This document shows, in pieces, positions 45,866 through 51,543 of a stretch of 51,543 nucleotides of DNA (within the stretch, counting starts at the first letter, position 1; every line of letters begins with the position of its first letter). The stretch is from assembly GCF_900220975.1 (NCBI RefSeq), contig NZ_OBQD01000029.1, positions 1 through 51,543 on the forward strand. Reading direction: 5' to 3'. This DNA comes from Rhizobium subbaraonis (lineage in GTDB: Bacteria; Pseudomonadota; Alphaproteobacteria; Rhizobiales; Rhizobiaceae). The notes under the pieces were generated by a model. It had not been told where the DNA came from and searched no databases. It saw only the letters and a program-made list of their open reading frames with translations. Both the position numbers and the translations under genes were made by a program.

Positions 45866-46009
45866 AGGCCGGCATACTTCTTCTTCCAATTGAAATAGGT
45901 CGCCTGGCTGATGCCCGCCTTACGGCAGATTTCTGCGACCGACACACCCTCATCACCCTGCTTCAGGATGAACGCCTTTCTGAGCGTCCGAAAACTGCGA
46001 TGCCTTCAT
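45866..46009 (-). mobile_element. IS3-family OrfA remnant
   Basis: Minus-strand MKASQFSDA, frameshift, then KAFILKQGDEGVSVAEICR and KAGISQATYFNWKKKYAGL, the helix-turn-helix OrfA of IS3-type elements. OrfB and the rest are missing. Confidence 0.85.
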
Positions 46010-46111
46010 CGTCTTCCGTTGCTTTTCCAGCCAGGAAAACCCCCGGAAAGCTCCAGCCAAAATCGGTCCAGTTTGAAGGGCTCAGATCACCGAGACGAAA
46101 CGCCCGCCGCG

Positions 46112-46232: not shown

Positions 46233-46305
46233 GAGCGGTCCCTGCCCAAGGGAACCGGCTCAAGTATTGACCGCAAATCAAAACCATGATTTACGATTTA
46301 CGGCA

Positions 46306-47505
46306 ATGATTATACCGCGACCTCGTATCGAAGCTGCCCTTGAGCGAGCCCTGGAACGCGCGCCCGTCGTCGCGCTAATTGGCGCACGACAGGTTGGTAA
46401 GACCACGCTTGCCCGCAAACTCGCAGATCGGGCGAAAGGCACACTCTATCTGGATCTGGAACGTATAGCGGACCGCCGAAAACTGGAAGATGCGGAAGCA
46501 TTCCTTCAAGCCCAGGCCGGACATCTGACGGTGCTGGACGAGGTGCAGCGGCTGCCTGAACTGTTTGCCGAACTGCGCGGGATCGTTGACGATCGGCGCG
46601 CCGGGGGCGAGCGGTCCATGCAGTTTCTGTTGCTAGGCTCAGCATCTTTAGACCTGATCCAGCAGGTATCGGAAACCCTGGCAGGGCGAATTATTTATCT
46701 CGAGATGCCACCGATTGGCGCGGAAGAGGCTGCAGCGGCTTCTATCGATATCGACCGGCTGTGGCTGCGCGGCGGCTTTCCCGATAGCCTGACGGCGGTA
46801 ACGGATGAGGACAGCTACCTCTGGCGGCAGGCTTTTGTCCGGAGCTACCTCGAGCGCGATGTCCCGATGTTTGCTCCGCGCATGCCGGCCGCAATGATTG
46901 GTCGTCTGTGGACGATGTTGGCCAACGGACAAGGAAATACACTTAACAGCGCGCGGCTCGGCCAGGGTCTGGGCGTGTCCGCTCCCATGATTGGCCGGTA
47001 CATTGATCTTCTTGTTGATCTCATGCTGGTTCGCCGCCTCCAGCCATGGAGCGGCAATCTCGGCAAGCGCCTAGTGAAGTCCCCCAAGATTTACGTCCGC
47101 GACAGCGGCCTCGTCCATGCCCTCCTGGAAATCGGCACGCTCAATCAATTGTTGGGACACCCCGTGGTCGGGCCAAGCTGGGAGGGGTTTGTGATTGAGA
47201 CGCTCATCGAAGCGGCTGGGCCTGATGTGGCTCCCTTGTTCTACAGAACCGCCGACGGTGCAGAGATCGACTTGGTGTTTGAACAGGCGGGCAAGCCAAA
47301 GGTGGCGATCGAGGTCAAACGCGCCAGTGCTCCGCAGGCCGAGCGCGGCTTCTTTGTCGCCTGTGACGATCTTGAAATAGAGAACAGAATCATTGTTGGC
47401 GCAGGGGCGGAGGACTATCCGGCGAGGGGCGGGGCCAAGGTGCGTACGCTGCTGTCGGCGGTTAAAGAGATCCGCGAAATTCTGAAATCACCGTTTCCGG
47501 CGTGA
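46306..47505 (+). CDS. AAA ATPase with C-terminal DUF4143 (AAA_14 family)
   Basis: 399 aa; ATG at 46306 (start of the conserved MIIPRPR opening), weak ribosome site. Walker A GARQVGKTT (26-34), Walker B LTVLDEVQRLPELF, sensor LLLGSASL, then DUF4143 from about 170 with RSYLERDVPMF, and a nuclease-like end WEGFVIETLIEAA ... ADGAEIDLVFE ... KVAIEVKRA with the D-x(n)-E-x-K pattern. Widespread, patchily distributed and of unknown role; often linked to mobile or toxin-antitoxin-like contexts. Intact among remnants. Confidence 0.85.
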   Translation: MIIPRPRIEAALERALERAPVVALIGARQVGKTTLARKLADRAKGTLYLDLERIADRRKLEDAEAFLQAQAGHLTVLDEVQRLPELFAELRGIVDDRRAGGERSMQFLLLGSASLDLIQQVSETLAGRIIYLEMPPIGAEEAAAASIDIDRLWLRGGFPDSLTAVTDEDSYLWRQAFVRSYLERDVPMFAPRMPAAMIGRLWTMLANGQGNTLNSARLGQGLGVSAPMIGRYIDLLVDLMLVRRLQPWSGNLGKRLVKSPKIYVRDSGLVHALLEIGTLNQLLGHPVVGPSWEGFVIETLIEAAGPDVAPLFYRTADGAEIDLVFEQAGKPKVAIEVKRASAPQAERGFFVACDDLEIENRIIVGAGAEDYPARGGAKVRTLLSAVKEIREILKSPFPA

Positions 47506-47711: not shown

Positions 47712-49010
47712 TCATGTCACCTCAGGTAGACTGCCAATCAGCTTGTCGAGGGTGATGGGACATTCTCGAACCCTGACACCCGTGGCGTTATAGATAGCGT
47801 TCGCGATGGCGGCCGAAACTCCGCACAGACCGAGCTCCGCAATACCCTTGGCCTTCATGGGCGACGAATACGGATCGGTTTCGTCCATGAAGATCACCTC
47901 CTGATGCGGAATGTCGGCGTGTACCGGGACTTCGTAACCCGCCATATCGTGATTGACGAAAAAGCCGCGCCTGAGATCGACCGCAAGTTCCTCCGAAAGT
48001 GCACCGCCAACGCCCATGGTCATCGCACCGATAACCTGGCTGCGCGCGGTGATCGGATTGAGGATGCGCCCGGCGGCGCAAACCGCGAGCATCCTACGAA
48101 TGCGGCTTTCGCCCGTTGCGATATCAACGCCCACCTCTACGAAGTGGGCACCGAACGTCGACTGCTGGTGGCTGTCCGCAAGCTCTTCCCATTCGACAGT
48201 GTCCTCCCCGGCAAGACCCTCGGAACCCGCAGCCTCGGCAAGCGGCACAGACCTGTTGCCTGACCGGACCTCCCCATTTTCGAACATGGCGTCCTCTGAA
48301 TTGAAGCCCAGCGTCTGCGCGATGGCTTCCCGGAGTTTGACACACGCCGCGTAGACGCCGGCGGTAGAACAGTTGGCGCCGAACTGACCGCCTGAACCTG
48401 CCGACACCGGAAACCGGGAATCCCCCAGGCGGACGACGACTTTTTCAATGGGGACGCCCATCATTTCGGCCGCCGTCTGGGCAATTATTGTGTAACTCCC
48501 GGTTCCGATGTCCGTCATATCGGTTTCGACGGTGATAACACCCTCGCGATCGAGCCGAACCCGCGCACCTGATGGAACGAGCAGGTTGTTTCGGAACGCG
48601 GCGGCGACTCCGAGCCCGATGAGCCAATTCCCTTCTCTCCGCGACGCGGGCCTGCCCCGGTCGCTCCACCCGAAACGTTCAGCTCCGAGCCTGAGGCAGC
48701 CGACAAGATCGCGATGGGAGAACGGCCGCTCCGGTTTTTCCGGGTCGACCTGTGTATCGTTGATGATCCTGAATTCGACGGGATCGATATCGAGCTTCTC
48801 AGCCATCTCGTCCATGGCGATCTCGAGCGCCATCATGCCGGGAGCCTCCCCAGGCGCGCGCATGGCGTTGCCTTCCGGCAAATCCAGCGTTGCCAACCGC
48901 ATGGCAGTCATACGGTTCTTGCCGGCGTAGAGCAGCCGTGTCTGCATCGCCGCCGTCTCAAGCTGACCGCCCGGAAGGTCTCCCGACCAGCTAACGGTTT
49001 TGAGGCAGAT
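47712..49010 (-). pseudogene. Molybdopterin-binding oxidoreductase subunit (xanthine dehydrogenase/PaoC family), 5'-truncated
   Basis: Open frame of 433 codons from a stop at 49011-49013. It begins inside the protein (QLETAAMQTRLLYAGKNR) and has only the C-terminal ~430 of about 730-760 residues: MRAPGEAPGMMALEIAMDE, GIGTGSYTIIAQTAAE-type Moco loop, GSGGQFG, and GIAELGLCG with the catalytic-Glu motif GxxE. No FAD or 2Fe-2S subunit genes nearby. Probably a leftover of a deleted three-gene operon. Confidence 0.85.
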
Positions 49011-49355
49011 TCATGGATGGAGCGATTCTCGTTCGCGTTTCCTCCGGCCCTCAACACGACTATTCATCCAAGGTCCTTCGAGGCAGCTCTTTATGTTTCG
49101 CTACGTTTCGTCAAGCCGGCTATTCCTCCCGCATCGCCCTGCTATTTGCCGACAGCTGGCGACGGGAATGCAGACTCGCCCTCCACGTTGACAGCCTCGT
49201 CAGCTTCAAGACGGGGGGATTTTATTCTGATGCGACCTGCGCCGTCGTAGGTCTTCGCGACACTGATCGCCTCTGCGCTGGGGGCGACGATCAGTCGGGA
49301 ACCGAACAACCTTTCACGCGTTGCCGCCGCTGGCACACCGGTCAGGTGTCCTATC
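49011..49355. other. 345 bp between the oxidoreductase fragment and the IS6-type element
   Basis: Short frames on both strands (49013-49381 plus, 49142-49396 minus) match nothing I recognise. No repeat seen. Confidence 0.45.
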
Positions 49356-50165
49356 GGAGTTGTCACGTTATAGAGCGGTGATCGAACTACGCCCACGGCT
49401 CTCTGAGATCAGGCAACCGCGCCCGTCACGGCCTTCCAACCAATGCGCTATTGCGCGGATGCGGTGAATGTGTGTGGCCAGGGCGGATCGTTTGTGATGC
49501 GGGGTGACGAAGAGATTTCGGAGCGCCGAGAAGATCGAGATGAGCCGCTGCAAGCTGCCGGCTGATCGGAAACCCTGCATCGTACGTTCTCGTTTTCGGA
49601 GCGGCAGATGAGAATTTTCCGCTCGATTGTTGAGACCCTGGTAGGACCGGTGCTCGACAGCCGGCATAACGTCACGCTCGGCCGCGCCATACGAACGGAG
49701 TTTGTCGGTGACGATCCGCTTGGGCGGCATGCCTGCTTTCGTTAGTAGCCTGATCAGCAGTCGCCTCGCGGCTTTCGTATCGCGTCGGCTTTAAACGATC
49801 TCGTCGAGAACATAACCGTCTTGGTCAACGGCACGCCAAAGCCAGTGTTTGCGGCCAGCGGTCGAAACCACCACCTCATCCAGACGCCAGACGTCCCGCT
49901 GCGACGGCGGCCGGCGACGGATTTGCTTCGCGTAAGCCGGTCCGAATTTCCGACCCCATCGGCGGATCATTTCATACGAAACGACTATGCGCGCCAGCAG
50001 CAATTCCTGGCCGAGGCGCAGGCTCAGCGGGAACCGAAAGTACAACCAGACCGAATGGGCGATGATATGTTGCGGGAAACGGTGGCGCTTGTAGCTGATA
50101 GCTGAATTCTTCATTCCGCTATCTCTACGCCCCACTTACTGACAGCGGGGTTATGTGACAACACC
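49356..50165 (-). mobile_element. Complete IS6-family insertion sequence (810 bp)
   Basis: Ends are imperfect inverted repeats: GGAGTTGTCACGTTAT at 49356-49371 and the complement of GGTGTTGTCACATAAC at 50150-50165 (12 of 16 match). It encodes one transposase on the minus strand. Flanking 8-mers (GTCCTATC and GTTCCTTC) are not a target duplication, so one flank has probably been rearranged. Confidence 0.75.
49368..50114 (-). pseudogene. IS6-family DDE transposase with a premature stop
   Basis: From ATG 50114 (MKNSAISYKRHRFP) through VVSYEMIRRWGRKFG and the first Asp motif WRLDEVVV to a TAA at 49791-49793, which stands where the family has Gln (…V-Q-S-RRDTKA). The same frame then continues with RRDTKAARRLLIRLL, IVTDKLRSYGAAERD (second Asp) and NRAENSHLPLRKRER (Glu). 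So one substitution inactivates an otherwise full-length enzyme, unless readthrough occurs. Confidence 0.85.
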
Positions 50166-50616
50166 GTTCCTTCTTCTCAGGAAGAACCTGCTGTCGGCTG
50201 GCGACGGCACCCTTGGCTCAGGCTGCTTTGAATGGCGCTTCCGCGCCACGCCGACTCCATTGTCCCGTATATACGGGGCACGCCTGGAATTTGCGTCTGA
50301 CCGATCGCCCCGGGTTTACATTGAAACTCCGGACCTGGTGCTGCTGGCAGGTGGAAAGAAACTTCCTCACGTCTACGAGCAGAGCCCCACGCGCCTATGT
50401 CTTTATCTGCCTCGAACATATGAATGGCAGCCCTGGATGAGGTTGGATCAGACCATCGTCCCCTGGACGTCGCTGTGGCTGTTTTACTTCGAGGACTGGC
50501 TAAGTGAGGGCGAATGGCGAGGTGGAGGAGAGCATCCCGAGCCACAAGACGTCGAGCGCCGCATTAGCCGGGGCCGTTTGCAGCGCCGGCATCCCCTTCG
50601 CGAAAGGATTGAGTAA
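50155..50616 (+). CDS. E2-like (ubiquitin-conjugating fold) protein of a CBASS-type operon, 5' end disturbed by IS6
   Basis: 153 aa as read from 50155, but the first codons lie inside the IS inverted repeat, so the native N-terminus was replaced. From about residue 28 the family pattern appears: TPTPLSRIYGARLEF, then RVYIETPDL, LPHVY with His72, RLCLYLP with the likely catalytic Cys82, then RLDQTIVPWTSLWLFYFEDW and GEWRGGGEHP. These are features of the standalone bacterial E2-like proteins of short type II CBASS operons, where they act on the CD-NTase C-terminus. The nuclease gene starts right after its stop. No CD-NTase gene is present upstream: the IS occupies its place. Confidence 0.7.
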   Translation: MTTPFLLLRKNLLSAGDGTLGSGCFEWRFRATPTPLSRIYGARLEFASDRSPRVYIETPDLVLLAGGKKLPHVYEQSPTRLCLYLPRTYEWQPWMRLDQTIVPWTSLWLFYFEDWLSEGEWRGGGEHPEPQDVERRISRGRLQRRHPLRERIE

Positions 50617-51491
50617 ATGGCGAAGACGAAAGTCGATCAGAAGACGCAACGGGCGCTTTGGGCGCGTGCCGCCGGCCGCTGCCAATATCGTGGCTGCAAC
50701 TGCGAACTTGTTGGGGAGCTGCTGTCTGGCAAGGAGGATAAGATGTTCGGCTTCGTCGCACACATTGTTGCCGACTCACCGAACGCGCGCGAGGACATCC
50801 GACCCGGTCCGCTTTTCTCGCGAAAGATATTTCAAATCTCATGTTGCTCTGCGCGAAACACCATCGTCTCATCGATGACGAAGCACCCGATGATCATCCG
50901 AAGGAACTTCTCCTGCGGATGAAGGACGACCATGAGCGGCGGGTGCGTATCGCAGCTGGTATTCAGCCGGACCGGACATCTCATGTAATCCGTTTCGGCG
51001 CGAATATCGGCATAAATGAGGCGCTCGTTGCAAGGGAGGACATTTTCGCTGCCATGCAGCCTGATCGCTCGCCGGCGTCCTTCGACACTATCGATCTGGA
51101 GATGCTTGGTCTTTCGCTCGATGATGCTGACGAACAGTATTGGCAGGTTCAGCAGAGCAACCTCCAGCGGCAGTTTGCCGAAAAGGTCCGGGGCCGGATC
51201 GAACGGCAGCAGATCACGCATGCATGCGTCTTCGCGCTTGCGCTCCAGCCGCTCCTGATCGAACTGGGAAGGCAGCTTTGCGACATTCTGCCCGCCCAGG
51301 TTCATCAACGACACAGAGAGCCGGCGACATGGAAGTGGCAGAACGACAGTGCGCCGATCGAGTTCCAGGTCGAGGCGCCCACCGAGGTTCATTCGACGGT
51401 GGCCCTGATTCTGGGTTTGAGCGCGACAATATCGAAGACGCGCATTGATGGGCTTTGGTGCATCGATCCTTTTTCAATGGTTTGGAAGTAG
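50617..51491 (+). pseudogene. HNH-SAVED effector nuclease (Cap5-like), frameshifted and truncated
   Basis: Frame one (50617 to about 50790): [17 protein letters not shown] (zinc-type Cys22/Cys27) and [12 protein letters not shown] with the HNH His49. The frame then slips at GCGCGCGAGG (about 50786-50795) and continues in frame two: [16 protein letters not shown] completing the HNH, a linker, then SAVED-like THACVFALALQPLLIELGRQL, VHQRHREPATWKW and ALILGLSATISKTRI. The match ends near 51440, leaving roughly 290 of the usual ~390 residues. SAVED domains sense cyclic nucleotides and switch the HNH nuclease on to degrade DNA. Inactive as it stands. Confidence 0.72.
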
Positions 51492-51543
51492 GCCTGTTGG
51501 ACCCCAATCAGTCTGATCCGAGCGATGCCGTTCAAACATAATG

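Follow-up and report, generated by a model that had tools for sequence, protein, structure and literature searches.

We find that the window, that is, the whole stretch of 51543 bases analysed here, carries at 50166-51450 the 3′ half of an operon of the short type II CBASS kind, consisting of a 5′-truncated E2 gene followed by a frameshifted HNH-SAVED gene. The locus is very probably what is left, in dead form, of a plasmid-type CBASS operon of the short (E2-only) type II. The PADLOC matches, the full-length plasmid relatives, the missing genes and the element junctions all agree on this, and they bear out the original prediction of a decayed short type II CBASS adjoining an IS6-family element. 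The remnant is a clear and fairly ordinary case of defence-gene decay, and not a new system. Here a plasmid-type CBASS has been dismantled in a genome with another CBASS that looks complete, and the position of both junctions is known to within one or two bases. Three more close copies are also broken, and the four make up a small set in which one may ask how frequently a costly abortive defence disappears, and which of its halves is the first to go.

The window is one entire contig (C63) of a 6.58-Mb draft genome in 85 contigs. No publication on this locus could be recognized from titles or the openings of abstracts, which is not proof that it is absent from print.

In the intact relatives, a DncV/SMODS-like cyclase would make a cyclic nucleotide upon phage attack, the E2-like protein would act on the cyclase, and the HNH-SAVED effector would bind the nucleotide and cut DNA. 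Having no cyclase and a broken effector, the present locus should neither signal nor kill, and anti-phage activity through a cyclic nucleotide is expected to be absent from it.

Results and Discussion

The features of the locus are as follows.

49356-50165, minus strand: insertion sequence of the IS6 family (IS240-type DDE); terminal inverted repeats imperfect, transposase in two frames
50155-50616, plus strand: E2-like gene, 5′-truncated; 153 aa; PADLOC PDLC00864 5.1e-51; PDB 8hsb_B 4.4e-25
50617-50919, plus strand: HNH-SAVED 5′ part, with homology as far as about 50784, beyond which the frame is lost; PDLC00739 2.1e-20; 7rwk_A 1.1e-9
50841-51450 (ORF to 51491), plus strand: HNH-SAVED 3′ part, in another frame; PDLC00739 1e-79; SAVED 2.8e-18; 7rwk_A 3e-40
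51451-51543, no strand assigned (.): mobile-element end, probably of IS5 type, with the contig stopping 93 bases into the element

The genes of the remnant

The profile matches of the E2 and of the effector are far beyond chance. The E2 ORF matches ten PADLOC families, eight of which are E2 models (the best being PDLC00864), and it represents the stand-alone E2 of CBASS type II short, the E1-E2 model PDLC00857 being reached with a value of only 0.02. Pfam and NCBIfam give no match to this protein up to E = 1. A solved E2 structure (PDB 8hsb_B, also 8yjy and 9kkb) is matched over residues 27-135, and compared with it the window copy is truncated at the N-terminus. It had been suggested that the E2 might belong to a poorly described subgroup, but the matches to PDLC00864 and 8hsb_B do not support this. 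The cysteine of the LCL motif, which we take to be the catalytic residue, is present in all 21 aligned E2 rows, 4 of the 25 loci being absent from the alignment.

Codons homologous to the intact E2 start at 50167 (residue 15), and over residues 15-163 of the E2 from the CIAT894 operon the identity is 94%. The GTG at 50155 belongs to the end of the IS6 element, the inverted repeat of which ends at 50165, and the E2 ORF begins inside the IS end, as had been claimed.

The E2 stop (50616) is followed without a gap by the effector ORF, which begins at 50617, and this confirms the proposed gene order of E2 followed by HNH-SAVED. Searched separately against PADLOC, both of its frames match the HNH-SAVED effector model PDLC00739, 50617-50919 at model residues 3-58 and 50841-51491 at residues 77-280. 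The 5′ part shares 98% identity with the intact protein over residues 1-56 of the latter, and a one-base frameshift is located near 50,784, within the HNH part of the gene. The HNH_2 match of an intact relative spans residues 47-88, scoring 17.8 bits, which is below its cut-off of 21, and PF13395 (HNH_4), which is a poor query, gives no match. The Pfam SAVED profile is covered over 1-95 of 190 in the window piece, compared to 1-190 in the intact CIAT894 protein.

The PDLC00739 pieces do place an effector with a nucleotide-sensing domain beside the E2, although it is frameshifted and cut at 51450. The Cap5 arrangement of N-terminal HNH and C-terminal SAVED in one chain is not found, the gene being split into two frames. 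Both pieces match Cap5 HNH-SAVED nucleases of known structure (7rwk best; also 8ysq and 7rwm), but compared to these the window gene is interrupted in the HNH region and in SAVED, making a whole enzyme impossible. In Cap5, according to a passage of PMC8568899, binding of 3′,2′-cGAMP by the SAVED domain activates the HNH nuclease. The original prediction gave the nuclease one frameshift and a lost C-terminus; the former is present, while the latter is better described as an interruption of the gene at 51450 by another mobile element.

Intact relatives and missing genes

Of the 36 records in the plasmid collection that match the remnant, 13 have a query coverage of 80% or more. DNA identities in the four best are 96.7, 96.0, 95.3 and 93.3%, and the first of these (Khangiran2) is itself incomplete. 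The other three, on A. tumefaciens pLN1-183666 (LN-1, 96.0%), the A. pusense GV2 plasmid (95.3%) and Rhizobium sp. CIAT894 pRheCIAT894c (93.3%), are full-length operons, so that relatives with the intact locus exist at 93-96% identity. They encode an ImmA/IrrE peptidase and an HTH regulator on one strand, and a nucleotidyltransferase, an E2 (annotated hypothetical) and an HNH endonuclease on the other, with E2 followed by HNH-SAVED as in the window. Compared with PADLOC, the CIAT894 proteins match capP (7.8e-62), capH (1e-24), Cyclase PDLC00780 (1.4e-108), E2 PDLC00864 (3.8e-56) and HNH-SAVED PDLC00739 (2.1e-162). Judged by these profiles, the intact operon is a short type II CBASS with CapH/CapP regulators, and it reads capP-capH, cyclase, E2 and HNH-SAVED, with the regulator pair upstream.

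Compared to the three operons, the window is without capP, capH, the cyclase, the E2 start (the first 14 codons, by tblastn) and the effector C-terminus, and the frameshift is added. The CD-NTase had been predicted to be missing, and indeed none is present in the window, nor are capH and capP; tblastn of the intact cyclase against the whole window gives chance matches only. The possibility of a cyclase fragment left of 49.3 kb was also considered and rejected, as the intact cyclase and capP yield only chance matches of 17-21 residues over the whole window, and capH none.

The CD-NTase that belongs to CBASS type II short is absent from the locus, and its best match in the genome, at 34-35%, is part of another CBASS on contig C31. 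For capP there is no match in the whole genome, in a search without a positive control, and for capH there is only a 33% partial match on C43. The whole genome contains neither an E2 of this kind besides the window's own nor a second HNH-SAVED.

The left junction

The homology to the close relatives is confined to 50166-51450. Its left limit is at 50166 for four CBASS relatives and at 50163 for the fifth (R. chutanense), and on the right the alignment of one relative extends with gaps to 51467. The CBASS homology thus begins within two bases of the outer end of the IS6 element.

This element belongs to the IS6 family by its IS240-type DDE transposase and terminal inverted repeats, the transposase being broken. 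The frames 49368-49730 and 49791-50135 match DDE_Tnp_IS240 (8.3e-14 and 3.4e-7), and plasmid DNA, in several records annotated as IS6 family transposase, matches from 49353-49361 (near-full-length hits) to 50162-50177. On C36 there is a copy of the element, 94% identical over 49356-50163, in which a single frame of 241 residues is open, compared to pieces of 140 and 114 in the window. Since the window transposase is split while the C36 copy is open, the event at the left junction is probably not brand new. With the element as query, at least 19 matches including the window's own, mostly partial, were found in the genome, 40 of the 70 candidates having been scored.

Simple insertions of the IS6 family are characterized by an 8-bp target duplication. 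The 8-mers flanking the present copy differ, and hence no such duplication is found. The 5′ half of the operon may have been removed through a deletion adjacent to this element or through recombination between copies of the IS, either of which would leave a scar without target duplication. Because there is no duplication and the element's own transposase is broken, we can only infer its causal role, and the same applies to the order of the lesion events. The loss of the defence by IS action, as originally put forward, is plausible because both edges of the remnant fall at mobile-element ends, and we consider it likely but unproven. What does not fit as well is the lack of a target duplication at the IS6 copy and the case of the 96.7%-identical Khangiran2 plasmid, where the half that went missing is the same one and the junction carries no annotated IS.

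The Khangiran2 plasmid (LR723669.1; L015:5822-7579) is also what recommends the main competing scenario, which we nevertheless regard as unlikely, namely that the cyclase half was lost by an ordinary short-homology deletion and that the IS6 element came to the scar later. This closest relative likewise lacks capP and capH, together with the cyclase and E2 codons 1-7, as judged from a 13.3-kb stretch of the plasmid. The deletion junction is a different one, with 2 shared bases and no annotated IS, and the full-length HNH-SAVED frame is kept next to an unannotated E2. In the window, however, no more than two bases separate the break from the outer IS end, and an element arriving later would have hit this position by chance only. 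Also, a simple insertion should leave a duplication, and none is present at the IS6 copy. An event at the IS6 element itself is the scenario that we prefer.

The right junction and the contig end

At the other edge, the effector homology ends at 51450 because another mobile element starts at 51451. A stretch identical to 51451-51543 closes contig C22, after a different left neighbour, which accounts for the break in the assembly at the end of C63. R. johnstonii pRL10 has a 93.9% match to this element end, and a more distant copy in S. meliloti (73.7%) continues into a frame with DDE_Tnp_1_5 (1.2e-32) and DDE_Tnp_1 (6.1e-24). Taking a DDE_Tnp_1 transposase to denote the IS5-type family, as we presume here, the element is probably IS5-type. 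Another option considered was a Tn5053-like transposon end, owing to the TniA/B/Q-like genes near the pRL10 copy, and this was dropped since the S. meliloti copy runs into the DDE_Tnp_1 transposase. A frame in Phyllobacterium resembles the S. meliloti DDE_Tnp_1 frame, by eye alone.

Apart from a 70% stretch on C69, the assembly yields nothing of the body of the right-hand element. Effector residues 296-375 have no match anywhere in the assembly, and a search of the genome with the DNA beyond the effector break, run without its own positive control, gives no match.

Selection on the remnant

We counted as unique changes the sites where the window alone differs from four relatives. In the SAVED piece (203 codons), the window has 8 amino-acid-changing and 3 silent unique changes. 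The corresponding changing:silent counts in three relatives are 1:7, 1:9 and 5:10, or 7:26 when pooled, which differs from the window with a Fisher p of 0.003. The window changes are scattered along the piece, and with two of them left out p becomes 0.016. For the E2 and effector pieces together, the counts are 9:4 in the window versus 16:46 in the relatives (p = 0.007). The HNH piece has zero unique changes in 55 codons. In the E2 piece there are one silent and one changing unique substitution, which are too few to tell and give no sign of relaxed selection.

The excess of amino-acid changes in the SAVED piece looks as it would in a pseudogene. It is important to note that such an excess is not proof of decay, because the full-length E2 of locus L066 shows one as well (5 changing, 1 silent).

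The frameshift and the contig end both rest on one draft assembly, and one has to consider the possibility of an artefact, in which the frameshift would be a base-calling error and the contig end a result of unresolved repeats, with the operon continuing elsewhere. In favour of this, the window comprises an entire contig and terminates within a repeated element, only one frameshift was detected, and the absent body of the right-hand element means that the assembly has gaps. However, the 5′ half is missing at an internal junction, away from the contig end, no close cyclase, capP or capH is present elsewhere in the assembly, and effector residues 296-375 are unmatched. Together with the amino-acid-change excess in the SAVED piece, this makes an artefact very improbable, and genuine decay of the operon remains the preferred reading.

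A second CBASS in the genome

Contig C31 harbors a second CBASS (L069:4621-10408), with a cyclase of 420 aa (PDLC00770, 1.6e-139), an E1-E2 protein (3.8e-213), a JAB protein (6.2e-67) and a 2TM-SAVED effector (8.2e-143), as well as a divergent HTH-ImmA/IrrE regulator, the best PADLOC match of which is RmrA (5.7e-53; capP 2.8e-18). The five genes are open frames, and the system is apparently complete. Its presence may have relaxed the selection on the broken operon.

One could also imagine that the E2, with or without the truncated effector, has been retained because it serves some other purpose, such as partnering the C31 CBASS or playing a dominant-negative role. Its frame runs through 149 homologous codons without interruption and has just the two unique substitutions given above, and the Khangiran2 plasmid too has a cyclase-less E2 beside a full-length HNH-SAVED. 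The window gene, on the other hand, has no native start codon or N-terminus, just the GTG in the IS end, and the C31 system has its own E1-E2 protein and a cyclase that is 34-35% identical to that of CIAT894, so that we give this idea the least credence of those discussed.

Decay among related loci

The five genes were tested by tblastn in 25 loci. Seven of these are close copies, with an E2 at least 91% identical to that of CIAT894 (the window, L001, L015, L016, L017, L066 and L067), and four of them are broken, each differently (the window, L015, L017 and L001). If the window is left out, because it was chosen for being broken, the count is three of six. Besides the Khangiran2 locus (L015) described above, L017 (pTiFPH-AT4, L017:5960-6404) has an internal frame-breaking deletion in the E2, for which the locus table shows no E2, and L001 (R. 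chutanense, L001:5451-6575) has one in-frame stop codon in HNH-SAVED, both operons being otherwise full length.

Among the loci with an E2 of 74-78% identity and an HNH-SAVED neighbour (L002-L006, L018 and L068), by comparison, none of the seven is broken, all being full length without stops, although these are not independent, some of them being near relatives of others. Scoring did not extend to the remaining 11 loci, eight having no HNH-SAVED match and L012, L019 and L073 lying at 52-60% with an incomplete set of genes, and the near-duplicate plasmid records H7, H8 and H10-H12 were left out of the decay count.

At least 18 of the 394 genomes of the family have any match, with at most two candidates scored per genome. 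Among the candidates scored, long matches are limited to the window's own genome, G198 and G097 (75%) and G129 (66%), the rest not exceeding 189 bases. Within the genus, six other genomes were searched, and none of them contains a copy.

The cyclase is present in five of the seven close copies, and the sensing half is missing in the remaining two, with different junctions. It is conceivable, but in our view doubtful, that this rhizobial CBASS lineage tends to lose the sensing half (capP, capH and cyclase) first while the E2-effector half lingers, and that in this way different lesions repeatedly disarm the system on plasmids.

Sequence to the left of the remnant

To the left of the IS6 element, a molybdopterin-binding (MoCoBD) gene of 411 aa is found at 47712-48947. 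It is probably 5′-truncated, since its match to MoCoBD_1 does not begin until profile position 186 of 244. At 46267-47505 there is an AAA_14/DUF4143 ATPase that matches the PADLOC candidate PDC-S01 (3.3e-86). Further out, 45868-46089 shows an 87% match to L066:9404-9626, a stretch of A. tumefaciens pLN1 that includes the start of an IS3-family transposase gene, and is probably part of an IS3-type element.
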